From a virus: 41,364 nt of DNA. Made by a program: the position numbers and the translations under genes. Every line of letters starts with the position of its first letter. The stretch's first letter is position 1. The notes under the pieces were generated by a model. It ran no database searches and was not told where the DNA came from. It saw nothing but the letters and a program-made list of their open reading frames with translations. The stretch lies in IMG/VR virus record IMGVR_UViG_3300007735_000730, positions 1 through 41,364 of that record. The stretch is one strand, 5' to 3'. This document shows positions 1-41,364 of the stretch, piece by piece.

Positions 1-2
1 GC

Positions 3-719
3 GGGGGGGGCGGGGGCGCTGGAGGCTTTAGAACGGGTACAGGTCTATCGACTCCTGCTGGAACCTACACCATCACGATAGGATTGGCTGGAGCCGCTGG
101 TTCTGGGGGCAACCAACGGGGCGGTAATGGGGGCACGTCTTCTATTGCAGGACCCGCACCATTTACAACTATCACATCAGCTGGTGGCGGTGGTGGTGGT
201 GGAACCAGTACCGACAATGCAGGTTTAAACGGTGGATCTGGAGGCGGAGGCGGAAATCAAGGTGGCTCCGGTCCTAAAGGACTTGGTAATACACCAAGCG
301 CACCTTCAGCCGGAGGCAATGGCGCACCAGCAGTGGCGTATCAAGGATTTGATGGTGGGAATGCCGGCGGATCTGCTCCTAATTACGGTTCTGGCGGCGG
401 GGGCGGCGCGGGCGGAGCTGGAAGTGTCGGCACAAGCACTTCTGGTGGTAACGGTGGTCTAGCTCAAGTTTCAACGATCACCGGATCGTCGGTCTACTAC
501 GCTGGGGGCGGCGGCGGCGGTAGCTATGGTGGCGGAACTGTTGGCAGAGGTGGTGGTTCTGCGCCAAATGATCCCGGGGGCGGTGGAAACGGAGGAACTA
601 CACCATCTCCCTCATCAACTGCTGGACTTCCCAATACTGGCGGGGGGGGCGGCGGTCAACAACAAGCTGATGGCAAGGCAGGCGGCTCCGGCATTGTAAT
701 CATCAAAGTGAATTATTAA
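3..719 (+). CDS. Glycine-rich tail fibre-type protein, 5' end cut by window edge
   Basis: The frame is open from the left edge, so the N-terminus is missing. What remains (about 238 residues) is dominated by glycine: long runs of G with S, N, A and P, separated by short patches such as TPAGTYTITIGLAG and SSVYYAGGGGG, and it closes with SGIVIIKVNY. This arrangement (a V/TPAGTYTVTVG-like strand, then polyglycine, then a hydrophobic GxVIIKV end) is known from glycine-rich adhesin or fibre-tip domains of many phages, where polyglycine helices are exposed for receptor contact. A second protein of the same type lies at 1899-3080. Function as a fibre or receptor-contact protein is inferred from composition and neighbours. 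The DNA is GGC/GGT low complexity, so exact length in an assembly deserves caution. Confidence 0.8.
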   Translation, partial: GGGGGAGGFRTGTGLSTPAGTYTITIGLAGAAGSGGNQRGGNGGTSSIAGPAPFTTITSAGGGGGGGTSTDNAGLNGGSGGGGGNQGGSGPKGLGNTPSAPSAGGNGAPAVAYQGFDGGNAGGSAPNYGSGGGGGAGGAGSVGTSTSGGNGGLAQVSTITGSSVYYAGGGGGGSYGGGTVGRGGGSAPNDPGGGGNGGTTPSPSSTAGLPNTGGGGGGQQQADGKAGGSGIVIIKVNY

Positions 720-720
720 A

Positions 721-990
721 ATGCAACGCATAACAGACTCAAAAATGTATCGGTTAGTCGGCCTCGACGCGGCAATGTATTTGCTTCGCCCCGGTGCCAA
801 GTGGGAAATCACAAATAATCAATTTACGCGGTGGGATGACCCGCGTCCATGCCCCTCAATAGAAGAGGTGCACTGGGTAATAAACAAGATCAAGGAGTTT
901 GAGGATTCCATCCCCACGATTTGGCTGGATAAGGATTTGGAAAAGTTTACAAGCGAACGCAAGATGATCGAGGAGGCGATGGGCGTATGA
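721..990 (+). CDS. Small fibre-associated hypothetical protein (XkdW/cyanophage-type)
   Basis: 89 residues, starting one base after the stop of the glycine-rich gene. It contains YLLRPGAKWEI followed by a WDD.RPCPSIEEV stretch. This 'LRPGA.W.....W.D....P..EEV' layout is seen in small proteins encoded beside fibre genes in cyanophages and other tailed phages. A role in fibre assembly or as a small virion part is possible but not shown. Its stop overlaps the start of the oxygenase gene as ATGA, so the two are probably translated together. Confidence 0.65.
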   Translation: MQRITDSKMYRLVGLDAAMYLLRPGAKWEITNNQFTRWDDPRPCPSIEEVHWVINKIKEFEDSIPTIWLDKDLEKFTSERKMIEEAMGV

Positions 991-1589
991 ATTTGCACGG
1001 CCTATTTGCGCAGCCGGTCGGCTTTTTTGACCTGAGGCGGCCGCTTTCTGATGACGAGCGGTTCTTCCTCATGGAGCTCGAACAGCGTCCCAACATGGGA
1101 AATCGCACAAGCACTAACAACTTCATTTTGCGCGACAACGTGATGACCAGCTTGCGCAGCTGGATCGAGGATTCGGTGACTGAGTATTTCAAGGCCACCA
1201 GTAACCCCAAGCATGACGTGCATTTGCGCGTGACGCAGTCTTGGGTGAACTACTCGGAGCCCGGCCAGTATCACCACAAACACGCGCATCCGAATTCGTT
1301 TGTCTCGGGCGTGTTCTATGTGAACACCAACCCCGGCGACAAGATCTACTTTTATCGGGATGGATTCCAGCAGATCAAGTTTCCTCCTTCTGAGTGGAAT
1401 GCTTGGAATTCCGAGTCGTGGTGGTTTGAGGCCATCACTGGCCGGCTGATTCTTTTTCCCTCAAACCTCACGCACATGGTGCCGACTGTTGAGGGCGATG
1501 ATTTGCGCGTCAGCCTTTCGTTTAACACCTTTCCCGCTGGCGTCGTCGGTGAGGAGATGGATCTAACTGGTTTGAAGTTGGAGGCTTGA
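987..1589 (+). CDS. 2-oxoglutarate/Fe(II)-dependent oxygenase-like protein
   Basis: 200 residues of the phage/cyanophage 2OG-Fe(II) oxygenase type (TIGR02466-like). A histidine cluster H96-H97-K-H99-A-H101-PNSFVSGVFYV provides the proximal metal-ligand region. The distal ligand is likely H163 in SNLTHMVP, with R174 in DLRVSLSFNTF as the 2-oxoglutarate-binding arginine. These enzymes use 2-oxoglutarate, O2 and Fe(II) to hydroxylate proteins, nucleobases or small molecules; the substrate here is unknown. The gene lies inside the fibre block, between two small fibre-associated genes, so modification of a virion protein or of host surface material is possible. The start overlaps the upstream stop (ATGA). 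Family assignment is fairly secure, the substrate is not. Confidence 0.85.
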   Translation: MNLHGLFAQPVGFFDLRRPLSDDERFFLMELEQRPNMGNRTSTNNFILRDNVMTSLRSWIEDSVTEYFKATSNPKHDVHLRVTQSWVNYSEPGQYHHKHAHPNSFVSGVFYVNTNPGDKIYFYRDGFQQIKFPPSEWNAWNSESWWFEAITGRLILFPSNLTHMVPTVEGDDLRVSLSFNTFPAGVVGEEMDLTGLKLEA

Positions 1590-1590
1590 T

Positions 1591-1902
1591 ATGGCGCACT
1601 TTGTGAAAATCGATGAAAACAATCTTGTTGTTCAAGGCGTGGTCGTTAACAACAAGGACACCGCAGATGAAAACGGCGTTGAGCAAGAAAGCATTGGCGC
1701 GGCGTTTCTTCAGCAGTTGCTTGGCGGCACTTGGAAGCAAACCAGTTACAACGCTCGCATTCGCAAGAACTACGCGGGAATCGGCTACACCTACGACGCC
1801 GCGCGCGACGCGTTTATCCCGCCCAAGCCTAGCGACGATGCAACGCTCGATGAAGCGACATGCCAGTGGATTGTTCCAAGTCTAGGGGCTGATTCGGTAT
1901 GA
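1591..1902 (+). CDS. Short fibre-associated protein, compact copy
   Basis: 103 residues with TWKQTSYN, RKNYAGIGYTYDAARDAF, IPPKP and DEATCQWIVP. This family is frequent beside tail fibre genes in cyanophages and other aquatic phages; its role is unknown, with fibre assembly or a fibre cap being guesses. The gene at 3089-3451 is a paralogue with the same blocks. The present copy lacks about 20 residues that the paralogue has between QTSYN and RKN (GGVHYDPDTG...). The start is one base after the oxygenase stop, and the stop overlaps the next gene by ATGA. Confidence 0.75.
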   Translation: MAHFVKIDENNLVVQGVVVNNKDTADENGVEQESIGAAFLQQLLGGTWKQTSYNARIRKNYAGIGYTYDAARDAFIPPKPSDDATLDEATCQWIVPSLGADSV

Positions 1903-3080
1903 CTACCAAGATCACATCCGCAAACATCACGCAGTCAGGCACATCTGGTATATCCAGTGTGGCGTGGCAGGCCGTGCAGACCACGGGGTTTACGGCTGTG
2001 GCTGGCAGGGCTTATCCGTGTAATACGACTTCCGCAGCATTTACCGTCACGCTACCTGCTAGTCCAGCGGCAGGGAATGTCATTACGCTGACAGATTATG
2101 CGGGGACATTTGGGACTAACAACCTGACGATTGCAAGAAACGGAAATCTAATAAACGGGGCTACCTCAAATGTTGTATTAAACGTCAACAGAGCTTCAGC
2201 TCAACTTGTTTACGTTGATGCCACTCAAGGATGGGTTGCTTACTCTGGATGGGCTGCTACGAGCCTACCTAATCCTACGGTTTCAGTAGAATATTTAGTA
2301 GTTGCCGGTGGTGGTGGGGGTGGTGGTTATAGTGCTGGTGGTGGGGGTGCTGGTGGGTATAAAGCTTCAACTCTAACTGTAAATTTATCAACCGCGTTGT
2401 CAATAATTATTGGTGGTCCAGGCGCTGGAGGAGCGGCAGGAAGTTTGCCGCAATCAACAAACGGCTCAGACTCTACCTTTTCCACCATTACATCAACCGG
2501 TGGCGGTGGGGGTGGCGGTTATACAGGTGGTTTCTATAATGGGAAAAATGGCGGGTCTGGTGGCGGCGCAGCTTATGCAGCAAGTTCAAAAGGATTCGGA
2601 ACTGCTGGACAGGGTAATGATGGTGGAAATGGTGGTGGTTCTGGCGATGCCGCTGGCGGTGGCGGTGGTAGCGGTGGCCCCGGTGGCAACGCTGGAAGTG
2701 GGACTGGCGGTAGCGGCGGACTGGGTACTCAAAATCCTATTAGTGGATCATCACTTTTTTATGCGGCTGGTGGCGGTGGCGGAGTTTTAAGTGGAACTGG
2801 CGGTAGCGGTGGTAGTAGTATTGGTGGCAATGGTGGGGCAAATGCAAATGGTTCAAACGCTCCAACAGCAAATAGAGGGTCTGGTGGTGGCGGAGGAGGC
2901 GGCACAAGTGGCGCTGGTGGCAATGGTAGTTCTGGTGTTGTCATATTAAAAATACCAAATACAAATACCGCCACATTTTCGGGTGGCGTTACATCAAGCC
3001 TTTCAACGGCTGTTGCTGGGTACAAAATTTACACCGTGACTGCAACATCAACGACCTCAGAAACGGTCACATTTAGCTGA
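1899..3080 (+). CDS. Glycine-rich tail fibre protein
   Basis: 393 residues. The N-terminal about 125 residues form a non-repetitive beta-rich domain (TGFTAVAGRAYPCNTTSAAF, TLPASPAAGNVITLTDYAG) of the kind common in phage fibres. A linker VEYLVVAGGGGGGG then leads into about 220 residues of polyglycine patches, ending in GVVILKIPN and a short beta tail. It resembles the truncated protein at the left edge, so this block carries two fibre tips of one design. The start overlaps the upstream stop (ATGA), and a paralogous small gene follows after 8 bases. Receptor contact is inferred from the fold type. Confidence 0.8.
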   Translation: MTTKITSANITQSGTSGISSVAWQAVQTTGFTAVAGRAYPCNTTSAAFTVTLPASPAAGNVITLTDYAGTFGTNNLTIARNGNLINGATSNVVLNVNRASAQLVYVDATQGWVAYSGWAATSLPNPTVSVEYLVVAGGGGGGGYSAGGGGAGGYKASTLTVNLSTALSIIIGGPGAGGAAGSLPQSTNGSDSTFSTITSTGGGGGGGYTGGFYNGKNGGSGGGAAYAASSKGFGTAGQGNDGGNGGGSGDAAGGGGGSGGPGGNAGSGTGGSGGLGTQNPISGSSLFYAAGGGGGVLSGTGGSGGSSIGGNGGANANGSNAPTANRGSGGGGGGGTSGAGGNGSSGVVILKIPNTNTATFSGGVTSSLSTAVAGYKIYTVTATSTTSETVTFS

Positions 3081-3088
3081 GGAAAAAG

Positions 3089-3451
3089 ATGCCATATTTT
3101 GCAAAAGTTGATAACTTACAAACCGTTGTGTTTATCACTTCTGGGCGGCAGGAGGATGACGGCAAAGAACTTGAGCTTTGCGCCAGAACGGGTGACACCT
3201 ACAGGCAAACGTCTTACAACACCCGTGGCGGGGTTCACTACGACCCTGATACGGGCCTGCCATCAGCGGATCAATCTAAGGCTTTCCGTAAAAACTTTGC
3301 AGGCATTGGCTACACCTACGATCCCGTTCGTGACGCGTTTATCCCACCAAAACCAACACCAGACGCTGTACTTGATGAAGCAACTTGTCAGTGGATAGTG
3401 CCCGTGGTTGATGTTGTAGCTGCTGACTCCATCGGTGCTGATTCTGTTTAA
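3089..3451 (+). CDS. Short fibre-associated protein, full-length copy
   Basis: 120 residues, paralogue of the 1591-1902 product: YRQTSYNTRGGVHYDPDTG, FRKNFAGIGYTYDPVRDAF, IPPKP and DEATCQWIVP are shared blocks. Unlike the shorter copy it keeps the GGVHYDPDTGLPSADQSKA segment. A GAGGAAAAAG ribosome binding site precedes the ATG. Fibre gene plus small protein occurs twice in a row here, which points to tandem duplication of a two-gene unit or repeated acquisition. Biochemical role unknown. Confidence 0.75.
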   Translation: MPYFAKVDNLQTVVFITSGRQEDDGKELELCARTGDTYRQTSYNTRGGVHYDPDTGLPSADQSKAFRKNFAGIGYTYDPVRDAFIPPKPTPDAVLDEATCQWIVPVVDVVAADSIGADSV

Positions 3452-3462
3452 ATGGACAAAAC

Positions 3463-5015
3463 ATGCCTTACAGCTCGCCTAACGGCAACAATACATTACA
3501 TATCTTATTGACCAGATCAATCCTAAAACTATTTTAGATATTGGTGCTGGCAGCGGAACCTACGCCAAGTTAAAAAAGCCTGGACAATATTGGAAGGGCA
3601 TAGAGATCTGGAATCCAAACATTGAGCAATTTAGGCTTAAGGATTTCTACGACGAAATTATTTGTGCTGATGCTCGGCAAATAGACTTAGGCAAACATGA
3701 CCTAATCATACTTGGCGATGTGCTTGAGCATATGTCGAAAGAAGATGCCTGCGATTTATTAGACAAGTGCAAACAATCTAAATTTGTGATTGTTAGCATC
3801 CCTCTTGGTCACTATCCACAAGATGAATACCAAGGCAATCCTTACGAAAAGCATGTGACAGACAATTGGTCTCGTGAAGAATTTATTCAGACTTTTGGCG
3901 AACCCTGGAAAGAGCATCAAGAAAACGAGATCGGTGTATTTGTGTACCGCAACCTGAAGATTTGCGTATACGCAATATCAAAAAACGAAGAGCAGTTTGT
4001 AAAAAGATTCTGTGATTCTGCTAAAGACGCAGACCTGATCCTGATTGCTGACACAGGATCAACCGACAACACTGCTAGCCTAGCAAGAGAATGCGGGGCT
4101 ACGGTCTACGATATATCTGTTAAGCCCTGGCGATTTGATATGGCGCGAGACACTGCGCTATGCCTTATTCCCGGCGACTATGATGTTTGTGTTTCCCTGG
4201 ACCTTGACGAGGTTCTAGAACCCGGTTGGCGCGAGGAAATAGAGCGCGTATGGCAACCTGAAACAACTAGACTCCGGTACAAGTTCGACTGGGGTCAAAA
4301 CATTCTGTTCTACTACGAGAAGATTCATCATCGAGTTGGTTACCACTGGCATCACCCGGTCCATGAATATCCTAGGCCGGATCAACGCACAACAGAGATT
4401 TACGCGCACACCGACAAGCTATTAGTTTCCCATCACCCAGATCCAACTAAGAGCCGTGGTCAGTATCTTGACCTGCTTAGGATGGCGGTAAAAGAAGATC
4501 CCAAATGCCCGCGTAACGCTTTTTACTTTGCTCGCGAGCTTACGTTCTATCACCTCTGGGATGAAGCGATAACCGCACTTAATACCTATCTTGATATGCC
4601 AGAGGCAACATGGGCAAATGAGCGGTGCTATGCGATGCGGTTACTAGGCAAAGCCTATGACCATAAACAGAATCCCTGGGAGGCTCTTAAGTGGTACAGA
4701 ATGGCTATAGCCGAGGCTCCGGGAACGCGTGAGCCGTGGGTAGATGCGGCGATGTCCTTCTATATGAAATCGATGTGGAAAGAATGTTTCCACGCGGCTA
4801 CAATGGCATTAGAGATCAAAGATAAGCAACTGGTTTACACATGCGACCCCGAAGTCTGGGGTGCAAAACCTCACGATCTCGCAGCGGTAGCGGCTCATCA
4901 TCTGGGCTTAAAAGACGAAGCTATAAGACACGGTGTGGCGGCGGTAGATCTATCGCCAGATGACGAACGACTCGTTAGGAACCTTCACTATTATGGACTC
5001 GCAAACGCTGCTTAA
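3463..5015 (+). CDS. Methyltransferase-glycosyltransferase-TPR fusion with an apparent frameshift near 3487
   Basis: From 3486 onward one frame stays open to 5015 and encodes three parts. The first is a class I SAM-dependent methyltransferase core, with DIGAGSGTY at 3537-3563 as the SAM motif and DLIILGDVLEHM as the acidic loop. The second is a family 2-type glycosyltransferase (CVYAISKNEEQFVKRF, ADTGSTDNTASLA, and the metal/sugar site SLDLDEVL near 4200). The third is a TPR-like helical tail (YFARELTFYHLWDEAI, LLGKAYDH, EALKWYRMAI). No usable start codon lies in that frame upstream of the methyltransferase. The ATG at 3463 reads MPYSSPNGN in the neighbouring frame; adding one A at 3487-3488 gives a smooth MPYSSPNGKQYITYLI join. 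So either a base is lost in the sequence or the gene is truly broken, with translation only from ATG 3720 (glycosyltransferase part). Likely modifies a surface glycan or virion protein. Confidence 0.8.
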
Positions 5016-5226
5016 CATCGCTTTTGGTGCTATTTCAGCTCTTTTTGGCTGGATCTTTCGGATCATTTGGGAAGCCGTGAAAGAAATGCAGCGTGACCTG
5101 CGAGACTTGGAAAAAGATTTGCCGCACAGTTACGCGTTGAAAAAAGACTATGAGGCAGACATACATGAAATCAAAGTAATGCTTGGCAAGATCTTCGACA
5201 AACTCGACAGCAAGCAAGACAAATGA
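4993..5226 (+). CDS. Small membrane-anchored protein of lysis cassette 1
   Basis: 77 residues if the ATG at 4993 is used; this start lies inside the end of the glycosyltransferase gene and avoids a longer overlap. An N-terminal hydrophobic helix (LLNIAFGAISALFGWIFRII) is followed by a charged helical tail rich in K, D and E, fitting one membrane span with a coiled coil. It opens a tightly coupled cassette ending in a lysozyme. It could be an antiholin, a spanin-like part or a structural accessory; no family is securely recognised. The stop overlaps the next start as ATGA. Confidence 0.7.
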   Translation: MDSQTLLNIAFGAISALFGWIFRIIWEAVKEMQRDLRDLEKDLPHSYALKKDYEADIHEIKVMLGKIFDKLDSKQDK

Positions 5227-5492
5227 ATTGGTCGGACGTTCTAAAGGCAGTTATACCCGTTATTGTTGCCTCGCTTGCATGGCTACTAGGTCAGGTTGCA
5301 GACTTCTCGACGCGGCTAACAAAGATTGAGGGATCTATGCCGGCGCTCATCACGAAAGAAGGTGTGCCGACTGACAGCCCGATTAGCGCAGAAAAACGGG
5401 CGATGCAGAAAGAGCAACTCATGCAGCACATCAACGAGCTGCAAGTCAAAGTCAGGCTGTTAGAAGAGCGCGAGAGGCTAACCAAGAAATGA
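5223..5492 (+). CDS. Conserved 89-residue lysis-cassette membrane protein, copy 1
   Basis: Starts MNWSDVLKAVIPVIVASLAW, a single hydrophobic helix, followed by a linker with GVPTDSPISAE and a C-terminal coiled coil (HINELQVKVRLLEERE). The gene at 31736-32005 on the other strand encodes a protein differing at only about 7 of 89 positions, while the DNA differs at many silent sites. In both cassettes the gene sits directly before the holin. A role in membrane lesion formation or its control is likely from context, but the precise job is unknown. Start and stop both overlap neighbours. Confidence 0.8.
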   Translation: MNWSDVLKAVIPVIVASLAWLLGQVADFSTRLTKIEGSMPALITKEGVPTDSPISAEKRAMQKEQLMQHINELQVKVRLLEERERLTKK

Positions 5493-5971
5493 TGACCTTA
5501 CTTTCGTCGCTTCTTTCCTTCCTAGCCGGCGGTGTCCCGAGGCTGCTCGACATCTGGCAGGACTCCAAAGACAAAGCGCACGAATTACAGTTAGCTCAGA
5601 TGCAGATCCAGCGCGAGCTAGAGATGGCAAAAGAGGGCTTTGCAGCTCAGCAGCGGGTCGAGGAAATCCGAACGGAGCAGGTACAGATCCAGAGTCAGAC
5701 CGAAGAAATGAAAGCGCTTTACGCTCACGATATAGCCCTTGGCGAGGGTGTGTCTCAGTGGGTAAAGAACCTTCGCGCTCTTGTTAGGCCCGTGATTACT
5801 TATGGCATGTTTGCGCTGCTGGTCTTTGTTGATGTCGCAGGATTTTGGTATGCCTGGACAATGAACGTACCGTTCGATCAAATGCTGAATCAGCTCTGGG
5901 ATGATGAGACGCAGCAGATCTGGGCTGCAATCATTGCATTCCACTTTGGAAGCCGAGCATTTGCAAAGTAA
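5489..5971 (+). CDS. Holin, 3-TM gene-transfer-agent/phage type
   Basis: 160 residues. There is a short N-terminal hydrophobic segment (about 1-22), a long charged coiled-coil region (AHELQLAQMQIQRELEMAKE) to about residue 85, then VRPVITYGMFALLVFVDVAG as a membrane helix, and a final hydrophobic segment near 142-158 (IWAAIIAFHFGSRAF). This plan, with a conserved RP at the start of the middle helix, matches the 'holin of 3TMs' family known from gene transfer agents and many phages. It would form inner-membrane holes letting the lysozyme of the next gene reach the peptidoglycan. The gene at 31248-31736 is a distant homologue. Confidence 0.8.
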   Translation: MMTLLSSLLSFLAGGVPRLLDIWQDSKDKAHELQLAQMQIQRELEMAKEGFAAQQRVEEIRTEQVQIQSQTEEMKALYAHDIALGEGVSQWVKNLRALVRPVITYGMFALLVFVDVAGFWYAWTMNVPFDQMLNQLWDDETQQIWAAIIAFHFGSRAFAK

Positions 5972-6434
5972 GACTCTTGAGATGCTCAAGCATCATGAGG
6001 GCGTAAGGCTCAAACCTTACCGCTGTCCTGCGAGACTGTGGACAATTGGCGTAGGCCACGTTATCGACCCATCACATACAAGGGTGAAGTTTGAAGAGAG
6101 ACTCTCTTTACCGATCCCGACCGGATGGGACAGAACGCTCACAATGGCAGAAGTCGATGAGATTCTTGCGTCTGATCTTCAAAAATTTGAGGCTGGAGTA
6201 CGCAGACTATGTCCTCTTGCTCTTACTCCTAATCGCCTTGATGCACTCACCAGCTTTGGGTTTAATGTTGGACTAGGTAATTTACAAAGATCTACGATCC
6301 GAATGCGGCACAACCGGGTTGACTACGTTGGAGCCGCGCAAGCCTTTATGATGTGGACAAAGGCTGCTGGCAAAGAGTTGCCGGGATTGGTAAAGCGTAG
6401 GCGCGATGAGTCTATGCTTTATTTAGCCGGATGA
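5961..6434 (+). CDS. Endolysin, GH24 (T4-type) lysozyme
   Basis: About 157 residues from a TTG at 5961, which overlaps the holin stop; an upstream ATG at 5901 would overlap the holin by 71 bases, and ATG 5982 is also possible. The catalytic region reads E13-G-V-R-L-K-P-Y-R-C22, then T28 in WTIGVGH: the E-8-C-5-T spacing is that of T4-like GH24 muramidases (E-D-T in T4). The C-terminal half has LTPNRLDALTSFGFNVG and ELPGLVKRRRDE, both typical for the family. There is no signal peptide, so export depends on the holin. The lysozyme at 30603-31085 is a different GH24 subtype. Confidence 0.9.
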   Translation: MQSKTLEMLKHHEGVRLKPYRCPARLWTIGVGHVIDPSHTRVKFEERLSLPIPTGWDRTLTMAEVDEILASDLQKFEAGVRRLCPLALTPNRLDALTSFGFNVGLGNLQRSTIRMRHNRVDYVGAAQAFMMWTKAAGKELPGLVKRRRDESMLYLAG

Positions 6435-6787
6435 GAGCGTCTTTCACCATCTGGCCGACGCTCTCTCCGTGATGTTTGGCTATCTGCTCGATCAGCGGAA
6501 GCCGCCGAGTCTTAGGCTTCGATAAAAGCCAGTGAGCCCAATCCTCGACGACAAGCGGCATAACCTTTTCGTAAGCTGCCGAAATTTCCTGTCGATCACT
6601 GCTCTTCACTTCCTTGATGATCGAAAGCCAGTTCTCCGAGGCTCCAGGCTCGAAATGCTTTATGTTTTTCGATGGTGTCCTCGCACTCTGTTGAGGGCGG
6701 CTTCCAGCTGTACTGCCGCCAGATTTCCTCGACTGGCTTGAACGTCCTGGGGGTTCTTTGCTCTGCAATTAACTCTCTCCAGCTCAT
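6412..6787 (-). CDS. Hypothetical early protein, split by an apparent +1 frameshift
   Basis: Two overlapping minus-strand frames each look real in one part only. The first starts at ATG 6787, overlapping the exonuclease stop (ATGA), and reads MSWRELIAEQRTPRTFKPVE with WRQYSWKPPS. The second frame carries the C-terminal part NWLSIIKEVK, VEDWAHWLL and LIEQIAKHHGESVGQM, down to 6412. The switch falls at a run of five T on the plus strand (6665-6669). Reading it as four gives one continuous protein of about 125 residues. A homopolymer error is the simplest explanation; true inactivation or slippage is possible. No family is recognised. It is the last gene of the recombination operon. Confidence 0.6.
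6433..6465. terminator. Inverted repeat at convergent gene ends, possible bidirectional terminator
   Basis: GAGAGCGTC at 6433-6441 pairs perfectly with GACGCTCTC at 6457-6465, a 9-bp stem with a 15-base loop. It lies exactly where the plus-strand lysozyme gene ends and the minus-strand early operon ends. No run of T follows on either strand, so it is not a classical rho-independent terminator. It also lies within the coding end of the minus-strand gene. Confidence 0.35.
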
Positions 6788-7374
6788 GCTAATTTCCTTT
6801 GCATTGTGTCAACTTCCGTTAAAAAAGTCATTACATCTTGTTCTAAATCTTTAATGTCTTTGGGATCTGGTTGAAACCTAACCACAAACAACTGAAGATG
6901 CTCAGGCAACCGTGGGTCAAACGATACAAAATCGACCCACTTCCTACCCGTACAGGCAAGCTGAGCAAGCATCTGGTGTTTGTGCTCAGACGGAACGGTT
7001 CCCTTCATCATCCAATTTAAGTGCGTGGATGTCTTGGGGCATTTGATTTCTAAAAGACCTTCCTCAGCGACCAGACCGTCAGGAGACGCTGCAAACGAAT
7101 CAATCGTAGGATGATTGACGATGGCGACCTGCTCCACCCAAACACCCTTTTTAATCTCATACGCAGCCCTTGCAAGCGGTTCATTTTGCGTCCCCCATTC
7201 CATGTAGGCATTAGAAAATGATTCGGTTGGAGAGCCTGTAAGACGCTCTGTAATGATGTCGGCTAGGTAGTTGGCTCGCGCTGCGGTTCCGGGCTTAGCA
7301 CGAGCATCCGATACTCTAGATGCCGTGACCTTACCAAGCCGAGCAAGTTTCCATTCCTCGGTGCCCTGCTCCAT
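6784..7374 (-). CDS. YqaJ-type viral exonuclease
   Basis: 196 residues, usual length for phage YqaJ/lambda-Exo-like nucleases of the PD-(D/E)XK fold. Visible motifs: GTEEWKLARLGKVTAS at the start (the family's R..G.TAS block), E65 in GTQNEPLA, D99 in ASPDGLV, and E109-I-K111 in LLEIKCPKT; these form the metal-dependent catalytic site. A downstream HKHQMLAQLACTG helix fits the family's Q motif. It resects double-stranded ends to give single strands for annealing by the ERF protein encoded upstream in the same operon. Start and stop both overlap neighbours (ATGA), so it is co-translated with SSB. Confidence 0.92.
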   Translation of the reverse strand: MEQGTEEWKLARLGKVTASRVSDARAKPGTAARANYLADIITERLTGSPTESFSNAYMEWGTQNEPLARAAYEIKKGVWVEQVAIVNHPTIDSFAASPDGLVAEEGLLEIKCPKTSTHLNWMMKGTVPSEHKHQMLAQLACTGRKWVDFVSFDPRLPEHLQLFVVRFQPDPKDIKDLEQDVMTFLTEVDTMQRKLA

Positions 7375-7745
7375 CAGAACGGAACGTCTTCGTCGTTGTC
7401 GATCTCGGCTTTGGGTCTGCCGCTCAACATTTGCATTTGGTCGGCAACGATCTCGGTTGTGTATTTATCGTTACCGTTTTTGTCTGTCCACTTTCGGGTT
7501 TCTATACGACCCTCGACGTAAACCTGTGAGCCTTTCTTCACGTACTTATCGACGATCTCGCCTAGTTTTCCCCAAAAAACAATGCGATGCCATTCTGTTT
7601 TTTCCTGGCGGCTACCGTCCTGTTGCTTCCAGGAATGTTTGGTTGCCAGCGTCAAAGTGCAAACAGCGACTCCTGCGTCCGTGTATTTGATCTCTGGATC
7701 TTTTCCTGCGTTACCGATGATGATCGCTTTATTTACTGAACCCAT
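7374..7745 (-). CDS. ssb: Single-stranded DNA-binding protein
   Basis: 123 residues with a classic SSB OB fold: NKAIIIGNAGKDPEIKYTD, TLTLATKHSWK, EWHRIVFWGKLGEIVDKYVK and QVYVEGRIETRKW. The acidic tip NDEDVPF is the conserved C-terminal tail that recruits partner proteins. It protects single strands during phage replication and recombination. It lies between an HNH-type gene and the YqaJ exonuclease, and its start overlaps the end of the upstream gene by 13 bases. The protein is shorter than chromosomal SSBs because the glycine/proline linker is minimal, which is common in phages. Confidence 0.95.
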   Translation of the reverse strand: MGSVNKAIIIGNAGKDPEIKYTDAGVAVCTLTLATKHSWKQQDGSRQEKTEWHRIVFWGKLGEIVDKYVKKGSQVYVEGRIETRKWTDKNGNDKYTTEIVADQMQMLSGRPKAEIDNDEDVPF

Positions 7746-8023
7746 ATTTTGCCTCTTTCAAATAAGAACCCGATTGTTTTGCGGTGGGCTTCTTCCCACA
7801 TCGCTTCTTTTTCCTGCTTATTCATACGATGCCCTTGGTCTATAGCCATGTGGCATCTGTAGCACAAGGCGGCTATCCTGTAATCGTGAGCCTTAATTCC
7901 TTTACCTTTCCCGTCACGAAGTTGGTTACTATGTGCTGCGACAACAGTGCCATCTTCCGCGCCGCACAAAACACACTCAAACTCACGAACGGTTTCTAGT
8001 AGTTTCTGGTTTCTATACATCAT
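7733..8023 (-). CDS. HNH-like zinc protein (DUF1364-type)
   Basis: 96 residues with two cysteine pairs, C17-x2-C20 and C54-x2-C57-H58, and H31 in VVAAHSNQLRDGKGKGIKAH. The pattern C..C - AHSNQ - GKGIKAHD - CYRCHMAID resembles the DUF1364 family often found in phage recombination blocks and related to HNH nucleases. It probably binds zinc and DNA. Whether it cuts DNA is not shown. It follows an overlapping start (ATGATG) after the upstream gene. A second, different HNH-type protein is encoded at 15670-15963. Confidence 0.75.
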   Translation of the reverse strand: MMYRNQKLLETVREFECVLCGAEDGTVVAAHSNQLRDGKGKGIKAHDYRIAALCYRCHMAIDQGHRMNKQEKEAMWEEAHRKTIGFLFERGKIWVQ

Positions 8024-9283: not shown

Positions 9284-9285
9284 AT

Positions 9286-9363
9286 TCACCTCACGAACAG
9301 GAACAGCAGGAACCCGTAAAACATCCCTAACGCTACGAAAGCCATCCATTCAATTTTCCTCAT
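9286..9363 (-). CDS. 25-residue membrane micropeptide leading the recombination operon
   Basis: ATG at 9363 with GGAG seven bases upstream reads MRKIEWMAFVALGMFYGFLL, then FLFVR and a TGA two bases before the ERF start. It has a positively charged N-terminus and about 18 hydrophobic residues in a row, so one membrane span is expected. Its ribosome binding site and tight coupling to ERF argue for a real gene, possibly one whose translation sets that of ERF. No family recognised. Confidence 0.5.
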   Translation of the reverse strand: MRKIEWMAFVALGMFYGFLLFLFVR

Positions 9364-9765: not shown

Positions 9766-9776
9766 TACAATAAAAG

Positions 9777-10787: not shown

Positions 10788-10790
10788 CTT

Positions 10791-11117: not shown

Positions 11118-11124
11118 GGAAACT

Positions 11125-14108: not shown

Positions 14109-14110
14109 TC

Positions 14111-30599: not shown

Positions 30600-30602
30600 T
30601 AC

Positions 30603-31245: not shown

Positions 31246-31247
31246 GA

Positions 31248-33550: not shown

Positions 33551-33558
33551 GGTTAGCC

Positions 33559-35781
33559 TCACAGTGTTGGGAAGGCTGCTGTTGGTGCAGTGAAGTTGGC
33601 TGTGTAGCGAGCGTAGCCTTTGGTAATGCGAAGGTCTTGGATGTATCCTGTAAACGGATAATTTCTATCCGCTGCTAAAGCATTGGCAATGATTAAGTAA
33701 CCATCAGACATATTTGCAGAATTGGTAACGGTTGAACTTATTTGAATTCCATTAACAAACACCCTGAAGTTTGTTCCACTTCTTGTAATCGCTAAATGTT
33801 GCCATGTGCTCGTTGTTAAACAGGACGTTGCTGTAAAAATAGTGGTGCCAGACGATGTATAAATTGTAATACCTGTTCCACTAGTTATAAAAACACCAAA
33901 ACCGCCTGTACCAAAACCGTTTCTTGTGTCAAATAAACAAGCATTTGCTGGCGTTGCACCAATATATACCCAACCTTCAATAGTAAAATCTCCTGTATTG
34001 AAAGCGTAAAGAGTGGATGCTGGAGATAACAACCAATCCCCCGTCCCATCAAAGTACATACTACTACCACCCCACTTGCTCTGTGTCGTACTTATCTGAG
34101 CATTCCCCACCGTCTCCAAGTCATTCTTACTTGTAGCATCGTAGATACCAGCGTTGGTGAAGTTGAGTAGTAGGGATGTGTTGGTGATGGCGGTGAGTGG
34201 TGCGGTTGGTGGGGTAAAGGCAGAAGTGTAAACAGCAGTGCCTTTGACTACACGAAGATCAGCAAGGTAACCGTTAAAGTATGCCGTCCCAGTTGTATAG
34301 ATTCTTCCAATTCTGTAACCACCAGCGGTTCCATTAGTCATTGTTCCTGTGTAAGTCGCTGTCCCTACGCTAACACCGTTTATGTACATAACAACATTGT
34401 TAGATCCTGTCCCTAATCTAACAAGAGCAAAATGATACCAAGTGTTAGTTGCTATTGTACTGCTTGATGTAATAGTGAAATTAGCAGATCCACCACTAGT
34501 ATATGAAGCAGCTACAATATTATTGCCAGCGCTTATTTGAATGCCAAGTTCATAGTTGCTACTGTTTTGAAAATATAATGCTGCTTGCGTTGACGCTGCT
34601 TGCGAATAAAGCCAAAACTCAACTGTAAAGTCACCTGTTCCTAAATGTAATGCAGCGCTATCAGGGGTTTCTAAATAATCCCCACTACCATCAAAATACC
34701 CACTCCCACCATAGGTAGCAGCAGACCACGATGCAGAGGGATTGAATGGGGAGAAGGCGACTACTCTGGTATCACCGTTTCTGGTGATGGTGAAGTTGTT
34801 GCCGCTTGTGTCTATGAAGCGGTTGGATTGGCATGTGAGGAGGGAAGTGCCTGATATTGCTGTTAGTGGGGAAGTTGGGACTGTAATGCTGGTTTGCGTT
34901 GGATCGTAAACTGCTGTGCCTTTGACTAATCGCAATCCAGACAAGTAACCGTCTAAATAATTAGTGCCTATATCGTTGACACCAATTAACAAACCATTCT
35001 GGGCGAAACTAGTGCTGTTAGTTGTTGTTCCGCCGCTCGTTCTTGACCCGTTTATCCATAAAGATAGTGTTGTACCGCTTCTTGCGACAGCAATGTGTGT
35101 CCATGCGTAAGCAGGAACTGTTGCCGACGATGTAATTAAATTTGCAACACCAAACTGACGGATAACAACAGCGTTGCTGATTATTTGCACCACAAAAGCA
35201 TCGGTTACATTCCCTGTGTACAGAACATCGTCACTAGTTGTTGTTCTATAAACCCATGCTTCCCAAGTAAAGTCTGATGGGGTTGCAAATGCAGCGTTGC
35301 TTGCTACACTCAAATAATCCCCAGTACCGTCAAAATAATTCCCCCACCCAGTCTGTGAGAACGGGCTAAACGTACCCTGTGTCGTGTTGCCGTTGCGGGT
35401 AATGGGGAAACCATCGGATGTGATGGTTGTACTAACAACTGTTTGGGATTGGCTAACTGTGTAGGTTCCGATTCCCCCTGTTCCAGTACCAAGTGCGGTA
35501 ATAGTTGTGTTAGCTGTTACACCAGAACCGGTAATCAAACAACCAACGTAAATGGTTCCTGACGTTACAGCCGTAACCGTCATTGTTGTGCCGGAAATGC
35601 TAGCCGTAAACACCGCATCGCCAGCAGTTCCGCTATCTAAAAATAGATTGTTCTGCGCTCCGTTAGTTCCGTTGCCAGGAAGCAATAGCGTGGTGTATTC
35701 GAAATAAGGATCAGTCGTTACCGGAGGCGCTGCTCCACCGGAGAACGCCGCAGCAATCATCGCTGTTAAGTTACCAGCCAT
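33559..35781 (-). CDS. Tail fibre protein with three LamG/lectin-like domains
   Basis: 740 residues from ATG 35781 (TAATG overlap with the upstream stop; an earlier start at 35811 is less likely). After a short N-terminus ([16 protein letters not shown]) three concanavalin/LamG-like domains follow. They begin [32 protein letters not shown] and [16 protein letters not shown], and each closes with a strand such as [32 protein letters not shown] or [16 protein letters not shown]. Each is about 150 residues. Such domains bind sugars or other surface ligands, so this is a strong receptor-binding candidate. The tandem copies share motifs but have diverged in between. Confidence 0.82.
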
Positions 35782-36542
35782 TAGGTTACTCCCGCACCAG
35801 AAACATACCAAGTATCAGTTGCTGTTTTCAGGCATGTTGCTAAACCTTTTGTAGCTACTGTTCTGTTGCCTGTTGCTCCGTTAGCTAACTGGAACGTAAC
35901 ACCAGCACCAGAGATCGTAAGGTTGCCTGAGTTGTCATTCACTACCAGAATCGTTGTACCTACAGGGAACGCTACAGAGGCATTTGTAGGCACTGTCAGC
36001 GTGGCTGTAGAACCGCCTGTGAAGATCACATGCTTACCAGAGTCTGTAAGTACCAACGTATAAGCAGAAGCGCCACCAGAGGTCTGTGGTGCAGTCCTAA
36101 AGCCTACAGAGTTAGTACCGTCTACCGTACAGTTGCTGAGTGTTCCTGATGTCGGTGTGCCTAAGATCGGTGTTACTAAGGTAGGTGTATTAGCGAATAC
36201 GTTAGCACCAGTACCTGTCTCATCCGTTAGCGCAGCAGCCAAGTTAGCAGACGAAGGTGTTGCTAAGAATGTAGCTACGTTAGCAGCTAATCCTGAGATA
36301 CCTGTGCTTACTGGTAAGCCTGTACAGTTTGTTAACGTACCTGACGATGGTGTACCTAACGCACCGCCGGAGGTTAGTCCAGTAGCAAACGATAAGTTAC
36401 CTGAACCGTCTGTAGACAGAAACTGTCCAGCAGTACCATCTGTTCCTGGTAGCGTAAACGTCTGGTTAGATGAGGTGTTTGCAGATTGGACGGTTGTAGT
36501 CCCCGTTCCAGATGCGTTACCCTGAAGTTTGATTTTGCTCAT
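35781..36542 (-). CDS. Tail fibre protein
   Basis: 253 residues. It has [20 protein letters not shown], then [20 protein letters not shown] and [20 protein letters not shown], and a C-terminal beta part ([20 protein letters not shown]). These low-complexity S/T/G blocks recur in the larger fibre gene upstream (36546-39374), so the two share a design and probably assemble next to each other. The spacing to the upstream gene is only 3 bases. Confidence 0.75.
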
Positions 36543-36545
36543 AGC

Positions 36546-39374
36546 TTATCCTAAGACCATCCAAGATTGACCATCTGGAACCGTTACAGCATACCCCGCC
36601 GCAACAGTCACCGGACTGACCGACAAACCGTTGGTATTGCTCGTTAATGTCACGTTAGAAGAAATAAGTATCTGCGATTCTAAGATAGGCCCGCCTGCTC
36701 CACCACCTGTTGCAGACAGAGTTCCAGCAGAGTAACTAAGCCCAGACCCTACGGTTACGTTACTGAATCCACCTGAACCATCGCTACCTAGTAACTGAGA
36801 TGAAGTACCTGTTGTTGCTGGAGCGTAATCCGTTCCTGATGTCGCAGTTGTAAAACCAGAACCGTTACCTTTTAGGATGCCATTCAGGCTTGTTGTTACG
36901 GCTAATGTTCCTGTACTCGTAACAGGAGAATTAGAAACCGTAAATCCAGAAGGCATTGATAAGCCAACTGAAGTAACGCCACCAGAAACAGCAGCCCAAG
37001 TAAACGCAGTACCGTTCCACTGTAGGTAAGTTGATGAGGTTGTTGGAGCATCAATAAACGATGTAGCGCCAACGCCCGTTTGGTACGGGATTTTGTTAGC
37101 AGAACCACCAGAAATGTTCTGTGCACCTGTCGCAACCGTCGCCGACGCAGAGCTTCCGGTAACTGAAATCGGCCAAGTACCGCTTGCGTTTGTGCCCGTT
37201 GTCGATGGCGCTCCTATTGTGTTGTAGCTGATCGTTCTTGCTACAGAACCATCAAAGGTCGTTCCAGAAGCAGCGCCAGAACCAGAGTTATTAAAGGTTG
37301 CAGCATTGGTTGTTGTTCCGCCACTGGAATATTGAGGAATATTAAGAGTGCTTCCTACCAGTGTTGCAGCACCTGAAGTACCTGTGGTGGTAAGGGTAAT
37401 GGGCGACTGATAGTCTGTGCCTGCCGTTGCAGCAGCGATAACGCCAGAAGTTGCTTTCAGCAAACCAGTCGTTGTAGCAGCTTTAATTAACTTACCAGTG
37501 GTGCTATCAAACAGCGCAATCTGGCTATCCGTTGCTGAAGCTGGGCCAGTAACATCTCCAGATCCAGAAGGCGTATCCCACGCAAAAGCAGAACCATTCC
37601 ACTTAAGGTAAGTGCCTGAAGTAACCGGCGCAGTAACAAAGGATGTAGCGCTTGAACCTGTCTGGTAAACAATACGATTAGTACCACCACCTGATATGGC
37701 AGCCGCATAACCAGCAGAACCTGAAATATCAATCGACCAGGTTCCAGTTGCGCCAGTACCTGTCGTACTTGGAGCGCCGACTGTGTTGTAACTAATTGTC
37801 CTGGCTACTGACCCGTCGAACGTAGTACCTGATGCTGCGCCTGAACCTGAATTGTTCATGGTCAAAGCATTGGTCGTCGTTCCTCCGCCAGCAGCGGCCC
37901 ATGCAAAAGTAGTTCCATTCCACGAAAGGTAGGTGGAACCTGTTGTTGGAGCGGTAATAAATGACGTTGCGCCTGAACCAGTCTGGTAAGCAATCTGATT
38001 GGCAGCACCGCTTGCCAGATTAGTTGCTGTCGTAGCAGCATTGGCACTGCCAGAGATGCTGATACTCCATGTACCTGAAGCGCCCGAACCAGACGTCGGT
38101 ACAAATGCTCCAGCAGAACCTACGTTGACTGCCAGTGCTGTCGCAACACCTGTGCCTAATCCGCTTACGCCTGTCGAAATAGGAAGGTTAGTACAGAAAG
38201 TAAGGGTACCGCTACTAGGTGTTCCTAATGCACCACCAGGAACAATATAGTCGGTGCCAGCGGTAGCAGCGCTGATAACACCGCTAGATGCTTTGATTAA
38301 ACCTGTGGTAGTTGCGGCTTTAAGAAGCTTTCCTGTCGTGCCATCAAAAAGTGTTATCTGACCGTCCACCGAGGATGATGGTCCAACCACATCACCGGTA
38401 CCTCCTGCCGAAGCGTATTCCAGTGCTGTTCCGCCAGAATTTACTCGCAGAACTTGCAAGGCAGAACCAATACTAGATAACCCTGTCCCGCCGTTGCCGG
38501 TTTGCAATGTCCCGGTTACGCCCGTTGTTAAAGGTAATCCATTTGCGTTAGTAAGTGTTACTGATGTCGGAGTTCCAAGGATAGGCGTAACAAGCGTAGG
38601 GCTTGTAGCAAAAACAAGCGATCCCGTGCCCGTCTCATCTGAAATAACACCACGCAACTCAGCCGATGTCGTTGATGCAAAGGCCGATAGTTTGTCTGAT
38701 GTATAGGCAACCGTCCCGCCAGCACCAAACGCCATCGTTGAACCATCTGTACCAGACAAAGTAACTGTATTGCTTGCAGTAAATGTCTTGCCATCAGCCA
38801 CCGTCAACGTAGAGCCAGTGGCAGGAGATGTGATCGTTACTTTGTTGTACTTACCGCCTGTTATATCGCCCGTAGAGTCAGCAATCGTAACCGCAGAGTT
38901 TTGTATAAGCTGACCAGTCGATCCGTCAAATCTTGCTACCGCATTATCAGTACTTAATGTAGGCCCAGCAACAGCCCCAATTACATAGTCAGAGCCATCC
39001 CAATAAACAACAGCTGTAACACCTGTTGGAATGGTTACCCCAGTGGTGGATCCCGACTTAAAAACAATCGAATTATTAGAACCGTTTTTAACGACGTACC
39101 AGTTTCTGCTCGTTGACCCGCCTGGCGCAACAACATTTCGGCTTGCGCCCGGTGTTCCTGTGATTAGTAAAACAGCATATCGCGCTTGATTGCTTGCAGA
39201 TCCATCGCCATTTGATAACGTAACGCTAGCAGATGTAACGTCAATCGTTATTGAACCGCCTATAGCCACATCAACAGGTGATGTGAGGGAGTTGTTAATA
39301 GTTGTACCCCAAGTGCCATCCTCTGTACCATTTACAGGCTGAGCCAGCTTTAATAGGGTTGTGTAATTAATCAT
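36546..39374 (-). CDS. Large repetitive tail fibre protein
   Basis: 942 residues from ATG 39374, which follows GAGG at the end of the 31-residue gene; a start further upstream would overlap that gene. The N-terminus MINYTTLLKLAQPVNGTEDG with TWGTTINNSL is a common virion-attachment start of fibres in aquatic phages. The body contains repeats: QTGSGATSFITAPTTGSTYL-like units three times, FDGSVARTISYN twice, and a TTGKLLKAATTTGLIKASSG unit twice. It is rich in S, T, G and A, giving a long beta-structured shaft. The C-terminus ends GYAVTVPDGQSWMVLG. A cut or recombination between repeats could change shaft length. Confidence 0.82.
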   Translation of the reverse strand: MINYTTLLKLAQPVNGTEDGTWGTTINNSLTSPVDVAIGGSITIDVTSASVTLSNGDGSASNQARYAVLLITGTPGASRNVVAPGGSTSRNWYVVKNGSNNSIVFKSGSTTGVTIPTGVTAVVYWDGSDYVIGAVAGPTLSTDNAVARFDGSTGQLIQNSAVTIADSTGDITGGKYNKVTITSPATGSTLTVADGKTFTASNTVTLSGTDGSTMAFGAGGTVAYTSDKLSAFASTTSAELRGVISDETGTGSLVFATSPTLVTPILGTPTSVTLTNANGLPLTTGVTGTLQTGNGGTGLSSIGSALQVLRVNSGGTALEYASAGGTGDVVGPSSSVDGQITLFDGTTGKLLKAATTTGLIKASSGVISAATAGTDYIVPGGALGTPSSGTLTFCTNLPISTGVSGLGTGVATALAVNVGSAGAFVPTSGSGASGTWSISISGSANAATTATNLASGAANQIAYQTGSGATSFITAPTTGSTYLSWNGTTFAWAAAGGGTTTNALTMNNSGSGAASGTTFDGSVARTISYNTVGAPSTTGTGATGTWSIDISGSAGYAAAISGGGTNRIVYQTGSSATSFVTAPVTSGTYLKWNGSAFAWDTPSGSGDVTGPASATDSQIALFDSTTGKLIKAATTTGLLKATSGVIAAATAGTDYQSPITLTTTGTSGAATLVGSTLNIPQYSSGGTTTNAATFNNSGSGAASGTTFDGSVARTISYNTIGAPSTTGTNASGTWPISVTGSSASATVATGAQNISGGSANKIPYQTGVGATSFIDAPTTSSTYLQWNGTAFTWAAVSGGVTSVGLSMPSGFTVSNSPVTSTGTLAVTTSLNGILKGNGSGFTTATSGTDYAPATTGTSSQLLGSDGSGGFSNVTVGSGLSYSAGTLSATGGGAGGPILESQILISSNVTLTSNTNGLSVSPVTVAAGYAVTVPDGQSWMVLG

Positions 39375-39381
39375 AACCGCC

Positions 39382-39477
39382 TCACGAAGACGTGGGAATT
39401 GTGGTCCACGTTGTAGTTGCACCAGGTGTAATAGGCGCCCATGTCGTTGTTACGCCCGGGGTAATTGGTGTCCACAT
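39382..39477 (-). CDS. 31-residue WTPITPG-repeat protein
   Basis: The ATG at 39477 follows the upstream TGA directly and the stop lies 7 bases before the large fibre gene, providing its GAGG site. It reads MWTPITPGVTTTWAPITPGA and then TTTWTTIPTSS: three W-[TA]-[PT]-I-x-P units separated by TTT. Small tryptophan-repeat peptides in this position are seen in other phage fibre operons. It may be a small virion part or fibre cofactor. Too short for a firm family. Confidence 0.55.
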   Translation of the reverse strand: MWTPITPGVTTTWAPITPGATTTWTTIPTSS

Positions 39478-39906
39478 TCAAGCAATCCTTAATACTGCAT
39501 TTGTAGCATCTGCCGGAGGAAATGTAATAACAAGATCTTGTCCTGACTTGCTGATATTTACACCAAAATTCAGCACAGCAACAGAGGCATTTCCATTGGT
39601 TGAGTTGTAAATTAAGGCACCGTTTGTGGTCAACGTCACGTTACTGAATGTTGCTGTTTGGAAAGACCAATAAGCAGTAGTTCCTTGAAAGCTTGGCGTG
39701 ATGTTTGTGAGGACAATCCCTCCAGCGGAATAATTGGTTCCACTGACTTCACCTGCCGTCGTGTAAGCAGTCGTTGAGGCACCGAGATCCGCGTTGGCGG
39801 TGTATAGGGCCAGCTTAAAGACATCGCCCGTTCCCGTGGTGAAGTTATGAAGACCCTGCGCCAGTTCAACCTTGAAGCTTGTCGTCAGGGTTTGAATGAT
39901 CGCCAT
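39478..39906 (-). CDS. Virion-associated beta-rich protein
   Basis: 142 residues: MAIIQTLTTSFKVELAQGLH, NFTTGTGDVFKLALYTANAD, a strand-rich middle (ANGAL-like), and FGVNISKSGQDLVITFPPAD at the end. It resembles small structural proteins between the adaptor and the fibre genes in aquatic podoviruses, where a tail or decoration role is likely. Overlaps the adaptor stop/start by one base, so the genes are coupled. Confidence 0.7.
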   Translation of the reverse strand: MAIIQTLTTSFKVELAQGLHNFTTGTGDVFKLALYTANADLGASTTAYTTAGEVSGTNYSAGGIVLTNITPSFQGTTAYWSFQTATFSNVTLTTNGALIYNSTNGNASVAVLNFGVNISKSGQDLVITFPPADATNAVLRIA

Positions 39907-40580
39907 TACACCACCTTATCCCGCACTTGGCCAGTCCTGTACGCATCCTGGCGCTCCAGTCCGTCACCAAGTCGTTTGGCAAGAACCAATGCTTCTTTGT
40001 ACCTGCTATTTACAAGGTTCACCATATCAGGCTCACCCTTCAGGAAGGTATAGGCCTCAATTAAACAGCCGTACAAAAGAACCGTATCGAAGTTATCACC
40101 AAGCCAGGTGGTTGTTGTACTGACATCGCCTAAGCCAATTGATGACGGATAGTAAAAGTAATGCAACTCTACCGAATAGGCGTAGTTGGGCGTTGGCCCC
40201 AACATAAATACAAGCTCTTTTGTATTCGTTGGATAGTCTGGGCCAAACAAAGCATAACAATATGGCCTGCCAGTATTTCCAGTCCCGGTTGGTATCGGAA
40301 ATGACTCACGTATAAAGTTCACATCTTTGTTAAGCAGATAATGATAGGCACCATCTGTATCAATTACTGCAAACGAGTATGGCGCAAGAAAGTCATCCGG
40401 CGCCTGTAAATAACGATTGTTTAAGACGCAAACAGATGTTACGTTTTTACGTAATGAAGGGAACTGAACGGTGTTAAAGATACGCTGTTCAGCCTGCTGA
40501 GCAAACGTCTGAAGCGTCGCCGTCTCAAACGTCGTCTCACAGAAATCTTGAATCGCGGTCTTTAATTCTCCCCAATTCAT
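39906..40580 (-). CDS. Head-tail adaptor (SU10 adaptor-like)
   Basis: 224 residues. It opens MNWGELKTAIQDFCETTFET and has FAQQAEQRIFNTVQFPSLRK, YLQAPDDFLAPYSFAVIDTD, YHYLLNKDVNFIRESFPIPT, and a helical end with TYFLKGEPDM-like and SRYKEALVLAKRLGDGLER. This is the layout of the adaptor protein of SU10-like and many marine podoviruses that links the portal to the tail. GGAG precedes the ATG. The portal and head genes would therefore be expected beyond the right edge. Confidence in the family is good. Confidence 0.82.
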   Translation of the reverse strand: MNWGELKTAIQDFCETTFETATLQTFAQQAEQRIFNTVQFPSLRKNVTSVCVLNNRYLQAPDDFLAPYSFAVIDTDGAYHYLLNKDVNFIRESFPIPTGTGNTGRPYCYALFGPDYPTNTKELVFMLGPTPNYAYSVELHYFYYPSSIGLGDVSTTTTWLGDNFDTVLLYGCLIEAYTFLKGEPDMVNLVNSRYKEALVLAKRLGDGLERQDAYRTGQVRDKVV

Positions 40581-40589
40581 ACGGGCTCC

Positions 40590-40850
40590 TTAAGCCATTG
40601 GGCCTCGGCACATAACACCCTTGGTTGCTGCCCCTGCGCCACGCATTTTAATACCAGTCGTCTTGACTTGGCTATTAGGATTGATGGCCACACCATGTGT
40701 GGGCTGCCAATCCTTATCCATGTTGTATGGCATTTGCTTGCCTGGATTAGGCGATGCAACAACCTTGGCGCCAGTCATCGTATGCGGCTCTGCGTAAACA
40801 GACGCCGGACCGACTTCCTTTCCGCCCTGATTCATGGAATATTTGGCCAT
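40590..40850 (-). CDS. Conserved small virion-region protein
   Basis: 86 residues: MAKYSMNQGGKEVGPASVYA, EPHTMTGAKVV, NPNSQVKTTGIKMRGAGAAT and KGVMCRGPMA. The 'RGxGAATKG...RGPMA' end is common to small basic proteins in the structural block of many phages, perhaps DNA-binding or scaffolding. Its start overlaps the preceding stop (TAATG). The exact role is unknown. Confidence 0.65.
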   Translation of the reverse strand: MAKYSMNQGGKEVGPASVYAEPHTMTGAKVVASPNPGKQMPYNMDKDWQPTHGVAINPNSQVKTTGIKMRGAGAATKGVMCRGPMA

Positions 40851-41026
40851 TACTTGCTCCTTTGGTTGGCAACCCTTGCAAGGTTGCGACCCATCTTTTT
40901 CATCATCTCTGATGTAGGGCCACCCTTACGCAATTTGGTTAGTGGCTTGCCTGGGTGCATGGCCTTCTCATGCTTATGCACAGCAGCCGCTGCCGTCTTT
41001 TTGTCCTGCTTAATGTCGTCCTTCAT
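40850..41026 (-). CDS. 58-residue lysine-rich virion-region protein
   Basis: ATG at 41026 with GGAG eight bases upstream; it reads MKDDIKQDKKTAAAAVHKHE, then KAMHPGKPLTKLRKGG and MMKKMGRNLARVANQRSK. The 'VHKHEKAMHPGK..TKLRKGG' block recurs in small genes of phage structural regions. Very basic. The stop overlaps the next start, so it is part of the late operon. Confidence 0.7.
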   Translation of the reverse strand: MKDDIKQDKKTAAAAVHKHEKAMHPGKPLTKLRKGGPTSEMMKKMGRNLARVANQRSK

Positions 41027-41034
41027 GTCAGCTC

Positions 41035-41364
41035 CTATGATGCTGTGACACTGTTCAACAATGCTTGACCCACAAGGTGATTAGGGGTCATGCCGGAATC
41101 GTATGATCTTGCACCGCCAACAGGGTTGAAGCCCCATTCAATAACTCGGCTTCCTTCAGATGGAACCCCCGTGTAAAGCGGGCTTGTTCCTACCGTGTTG
41201 TTCGTCTGCATCCCGTTGTAACCTGACTGGTAATACGAATTGGAATCGGGACGAGGATTCCGTACGGCCTGAGGATCGTCCACGGGCCACATGCCTAGCT
41301 GCAATTGCGGCTGGTCAGGCTCCCAGCAAGTCGGACATACCAGTATATTGACATTTTTTGTCTT
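41035..41364 (-). CDS. Virion-region zinc-motif protein, 5' end cut by window edge
   Basis: 110 codons are visible and the frame is still open at the right edge. The edge begins KTKNVNILVCPTCWEPDQPQ, the second half of a CxxC...CxxC zinc-ribbon known in small proteins of podovirus late operons, followed by LGMWPVDDPQAVRNPRPDSN and a glycine/serine-rich rest. The protein therefore starts outside the window. The TTG at about 41304 is probably internal. Function unknown. Confidence 0.65.
   Translation of the reverse strand, partial: KTKNVNILVCPTCWEPDQPQLQLGMWPVDDPQAVRNPRPDSNSYYQSGYNGMQTNNTVGTSPLYTGVPSEGSRVIEWGFNPVGGARSYDSGMTPNHLVGQALLNSVTAS

Follow-up and report, generated by a model that had tools for sequence, protein, structure and literature searches.

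Two kinds of described phage come closest to the DNA analysed here, the linear 41,364-base virus record IMGVR_UViG_3300007735_000730, which has no terminal repeat and whose full length we call the window. One is the cultured Methylophilaceae siphophage P19250A (KX815270), which has tape-measure genes and in which late genes on the plus strand are followed by a short minus-strand block with a recombinase, by a divergent region and by plus-strand genes that run round to the terminase. The same order is found in a group of environmental relatives of the window, family A, whose terminase is 67% identical to that of P19250A; at the DNA level P19250A does not match the first 9.4 kb of the window, and it is without the podophage segment described below. 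The other kind comprises HTVC023P, DSL-LC04, Pag-Yong1 and CRP-901 (52–65 kb), whose portal and stabilization proteins are 40–46% and 31–37% identical, respectively, to those of a second group of relatives, family B. In phage DSL-LC04 a plus-strand PD-(D/E)XK gene converges with a minus-strand DNA-transfer protein gene, which is followed by stabilization protein, peptidase and holin genes, an order similar to that of family B. No DNA-level match to positions 9.4–34 kb of the window exists in this kind of phage, and the matches of the family A ERF protein in the isolate collection fell in phages of other kinds. A megablast search of both halves against isolate phages also gave no match.

By its gene calls, the window consists of four transcription blocks, i.e. 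late genes on the plus strand (84–6434), early genes on the minus strand (6412–9349), early genes on the plus strand (9451–15963) and late genes on the minus strand (15945–41304), just as a previous sequence-only reading had described them. The same reading had seen a doubled set of functions in this layout, and profile searches bear this out for two GH24 endolysins (each phrog_7), two 3-TM holin-like genes (each phrog_6637), two ERF annealing proteins (each phrog_155), two nucleases of unlike families (YqaJ/phrog_149 versus PDDEXK_1/phrog_2139) and two HNH genes (phrog_131 versus phrog_1588). It does not extend to SSB, as there is one clear copy in the window (phrog_44) and the ‘SSB-like’ gene at 13818–14108 matched no profile, which leaves this label unsupported. 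Terminase, portal and capsid genes of either family were not recognised within the window, and GC and skew composition did not tell its two segments apart.

An important question is whether these doubled functions belong to one virus. By tblastn and exact 25-mers, positions 1–11911 form a segment of family A, with a fibre end, a glycosyltransferase, a lysis cassette, a recombination set and early genes. The fibre/2OG-oxygenase block at its end (84–3451, plus strand; phrog_81 2OG oxygenase) has homologues in the family A records G002 and G021 as well as in the family B records G033, G041 and G043. The lysis cassette (4960–6434, plus strand; phrog_462, phrog_6637, phrog_7) encodes two TM/coil proteins, the 3-TM holin-like protein and the GH24 endolysin (5901–6434). 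The recombination set on the minus strand (6412–9349; phrog_149/PF09588, phrog_44, phrog_131, phrog_155) consists of the 6412 ORF, the YqaJ exonuclease (6784–7374), SSB (7374–7745), HNH (7733–8023), further ORFs and ERF (8684–9349). The early genes on the plus strand (9451–11469; phrog_9474, phrog_229) include a conserved ORF (9451–9765), which is 97–100% identical in close family A relatives, a replication-initiation-like gene (10297–10662) and MazG (11125–11469). The divergence of the ERF, HNH, SSB and YqaJ genes from the 9451 ORF is found in the window within 1–11.9 kb only.

When 52 proteins of the window were compared by tblastn with 10 family A and 7 family B contigs, the glycosyltransferase (3720), the 6412 ORF, YqaJ, SSB, HNH, ERF, the 9451 ORF and MazG were present in all 10 of the former and in none of the latter. 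Likewise, exact 25-mers from family A loci cover 7,470 bases of positions 1–11900, those from family B loci 316. Family A relatives are ~35–39 kb long, and two of them, G006 (37,152 bp) and G023 (37,643 bp), have 127-bp direct terminal repeats, as in closed assemblies. G006 encodes a terminase (phrog_9), a portal protein (phrog_12), a protease, a capsid protein and a tape measure, a gene set that makes family A siphophage-like. Since neither this terminase and portal nor a capsid or tape-measure gene was recognised in the window, it appears to hold only a fragment of such a phage. The ERF gene of the second segment was absent from all 32 records obtained with two family A queries. No family A genome has more than one lysozyme locus, and G009 and G023 match neither lysozyme.

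Positions 11925–41364 form a segment of family B, as indicated by genes restricted to this family, collinearity with G034 and 25-mers; it contains a second recombination set, a DarB-like protein, tail genes, a second lysis cassette and fibres. Its early block (12003–15963, plus strand; phrog_2139/PF12705, phrog_2324/155, phrog_1588/PF16786), which is shared with family B relatives only, includes the 12003 ORF, a PD-(D/E)XK exonuclease (12358–13227), ERF (13199–13840), further ORFs and a RecA-dependent-nuclease-like HNH gene (15670–15963). It is met by virion genes on the minus strand (15945–30599; phrog_10089, phrog_4287, phrog_3287) for the DarB-like protein of 2,370 amino acids, an ejection-protein-like (24623) and a stabilization-protein-like (28452) product. 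The latter protein was also used for a host search, which returned scattered MAG contigs only and yielded no host. The lysis cassette (30603–32005, minus strand; phrog_7, phrog_6637/phrog_3427) comprises a GH24 endolysin (30603–31085), which is 79–88% identical in the family B records G034, G040, G041, G042, G043 and G045, a TM protein (31063–31245), a holin-like protein (31248–31736) and a TM/coil protein (31736–32005). Fibre and tail genes on the minus strand occupy 32002–41304. Between 12.0 and 31.7 kb the window has the order of a plus-strand PD-(D/E)XK gene converging with a DNA-transfer/DarB-like gene, followed by stabilization protein, endolysin and holin.

In the tblastn comparison of 10 family A and 7 family B contigs, the genes at 12003–30599 were found in family B relatives and in no family A contig, and those at 39478–41304 (76–99% identity) again in family B relatives only; exact 25-mers from family B loci cover 13,257 bases of positions 12000–31700, those from family A loci not a single one. 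Family B relatives are ~50–63 kb long; G033 (63 kb) and G043 (50 kb) encode a terminase (phrog_38), a portal protein (phrog_1216) and a capsid protein, and the two contig ends of G043 each hold a part of its lysozyme gene, as expected for a closed circle. By gene content, the morphotype of family B would be podophage-like. Its terminase (phrog_38) and portal (phrog_1216) were not encountered in the window and would lie beyond its right end.

The mirror axis proposed at 9364–9450 is not where these two segments meet. The divergent intergenic region (9350–9450) is an ordinary feature of family A, across which alignments of G001, L011, L013, L019 and others run; G001 aligns to 5489–9767 as one stretch of 95% identity and to 9931–12001 at 93%. 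Many family A relatives are ~300 bp longer in the interval 9364–9426, i.e. the spacer varies while both flanks are kept, and IMG/VR searches with the ERF gene (8684–9349) and with the 9451 ORF returned many contigs in common. A seam at 9.3–10.3 kb was rejected, as homology in many family A relatives crosses this interval. To judge from these alignments, the divergence at 9364–9450 is ordinary architecture of one kind of phage, and the join sits 2.5 kb to the right of the supposed axis.

The stretch to the right of the divergent region contains two noncoding elements of the family A segment. A ~157-bp insert (9777–9933) has a very stable branched hairpin that ends in a T-run (z −4.1); it is missing in the family A relative G001 and occurs in opposite orientation in the B-type loci L165 (90% identity) and L177 (83%), and is taken as a small mobile or shuffled element that may act as a terminator. 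Next to it, a structured RNA candidate of ~250 nt (9932–10180, plus strand) belongs to a noncoding block with 89–94% identity in A-like contigs whose 9451 gene is only ~70–74% identical in DNA. Homologues in 71 stretches of viral contigs, from siphophage A, podophage B and other phages (e.g. L138, L173, L174, L356, L391, L401, L408 and L409), were retrieved with a degenerate pattern; in different phages they lie near terminase, ParB-like/helicase or replication-initiation genes. Across 35 aligned sequences, 96.4% of the cells are paired in a consensus of 42 pairs, 22 of which show double-sided, i.e. compensatory, changes (171 cells versus 45 ± 5 in shuffles). The covariation score is 0.37 versus at most 0.09 when slid, a control that is flattered by deriving the structure from the same alignment; the double-sided changes are independent of that. 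The candidate had no match in Rfam 15, even at an E of 1. It is real family A sequence, independently of how the window as a whole arose.

The two segments meet in a mosaic gene (11594–12010, plus strand; motifs EPVAW...LYTSP...WVGLTDEE), which has homologues in both family A and family B relatives and matches nothing in Pfam. Family A homology stops at ~12,001, and in the best-covered family B relatives, found with the PD-(D/E)XK gene, homology begins between 11,843 and 12,018. In bins of 20 bases, G001 is identical to the window at 19–20 positions from 11,720 to ~11,920 and at 11–17 thereafter, and the family B relative L171 at 16–20 from ~11,920 onward; G001 thus drops from ~98% to ~70% at the point from which L171 continues at ~92–95%. 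The final exact 25-mer run of family A stops at 11,911, and exact runs of family B cover 11,863–11,895 and are then almost unbroken from 11,976. From this identity switch and these runs we infer that the true seam is at ~11,911–11,925, outside the 9.3–10.3 kb interval where reads spanning a join had previously been suggested to be decisive. Across the join the gene is uninterrupted and its reading frame is kept, and an exact 45-mer spanning the join does not occur a second time in the viral_contigs collection searched, from which near-identical records may have been withheld. The mosaic gene family is domain-shuffled, with none to several copies per unrelated freshwater phage, and is likely both an exchange point and an assembler trap.

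Overall, our data indicate that the contig is very probably an assembly chimera of two ordinary, unrelated freshwater phages, joined in the computer and not in the cell. Among fetched loci, which are not the same as distinct contigs, 159 contain at least two genes restricted to family A and 34 at least two restricted to family B, and none contains both. Each closed relative on either side has a single recombination set and no more than one lysozyme locus, and no relative among those compared carries the two recombination sets together with the two lysis cassettes. As the sequence-only reading had anticipated for a chimera, the halves match two separate phages; it is the boundary that moves, since relatives from family A span 1–11.92 kb and those from family B the remainder. 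As these relatives are not the input genomes themselves, identity to them is ~65–98% and not uniformly 90% or more. Sequence common to both genomes is present at the join: identical runs between family A and family B loci reach up to 254 bases, the longest being in the join's own gene family. A shared run of 254 bases exceeds the usual word sizes of short-read assemblers, and contigs of the two families come in part from the same metagenomes, as detailed below. Directly at the join, the identical overlap is only ~28 bp in the relatives compared, and a longer one would have to be assumed in the true parents. An assembler path would have run from a family A siphophage (1 to ~11,915) through the mosaic gene common to both into a family B podophage (~11,925 to the end); in the real viruses, each half would reside in its own genome, which has a single lysis cassette and a single recombination set. 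The mirror-like look of the window would then stem from joining two genomes that have convergent early and late blocks.

Among the four options that had been put forward, an assembly join fits best, with a real fusion as its one serious competitor. Such a fusion would not be one of two relatives as had been proposed, as the donors are not close relatives, one being of the siphophage type with a tape measure and the other of the podophage type. A natural recombinant, i.e. a hybrid or cointegrate produced by crossover between both phages in the shared mosaic gene, could draw on the join being in frame at a homologous motif, which homologous recombination would produce as well, on identical runs of up to 254 bp and on the presence of both kinds in the same samples, family A and family B contigs occurring together in at least 6 of the 17 metagenomes that yielded family B. 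Yet it is a single instance: no other fetched locus links the two gene sets, and the join sequence is found nowhere else in viral_contigs. Moreover, with no recognised packaging gene, it would need a second junction between the families or a cointegrate of ~90–100 kb, neither of which was seen. We therefore regard a natural recombinant as unlikely; improbable, too, is a siphophage–podophage hybrid with the domain-shuffled gene as a site at which unrelated freshwater phages exchange DNA.

Gene flow between the two families is nevertheless likely real and counts in favour of recombination, since they have fibre modules in common. Shared across the otherwise clear split are the mosaic gene itself, the fibre genes, a small TM/coil protein and, as distant homologies, holin and lysozyme. 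The block at 84–3451 belongs to a fibre pool common to both, and the fibre module at 33230–36542 (33.2–36.5 kb), which lies in the family B segment, is nearer to modules of family A; its 33230 ORF is 87% identical in the family A genome G004 and has no match in seven family B genomes. These similarities suggest fibre exchange between siphophages and podophages, and perhaps shared hosts. A second false join at this A-like fibre block (31.7–37.4 kb) was considered; as the block is flanked by genes of family B on either side and the order of its modules is consistent, a natural module swap seems more likely here. The small TM/coil protein of 89 amino acids, encoded at 5223–5492 (plus strand) and 31736–32005 (minus strand), is 91% identical between its two copies at 74% DNA identity, and 99–100% identical among family A copies at 86–95% DNA identity, which points to unusually strong constraint at the protein level. 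The inverted repeat 5223–5494/31734–32005 was rejected as a trace of genome-scale inversion, as it is this one shared gene.

Far less credible is a genuinely two-armed genome, symmetric about 9.4 kb, in which lysis and recombination functions are duplicated. Strand layout and gene names are what speaks for it; the halves are not homologous arms, their recombination sets are unlike and occur singly in the relatives of either half, and the proposed axis does not coincide with the seam. Least credible of all is that two prophages lie side by side in a bacterial chromosome, in favour of which nothing was found: the join lies within a phage gene, no integrase, intervening host gene or tRNA was recognised in the window, and the relatives are viral contigs, some of them closed.

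If the contig is indeed an assembly chimera, most likely no single virus has these lysis and recombination systems in duplicate; the contig should then be split at ~11.92 kb and is unfit as evidence for such duplication. It also shows where false joins can arise, i.e. in a mosaic gene family common to unrelated phages of the same waters. Virome assembly is documented to yield chimeric contigs where co-existing viruses share regions (PMC5610896; PMC3901335), and in simulations these usually make up less than 5% of the contigs of at least 10 kb (PMC5610896). As in such contigs, two distinct genomes would be joined here at a shared region; the chimera proposed for the window is deduced from its relatives and not from known input genomes or reads.
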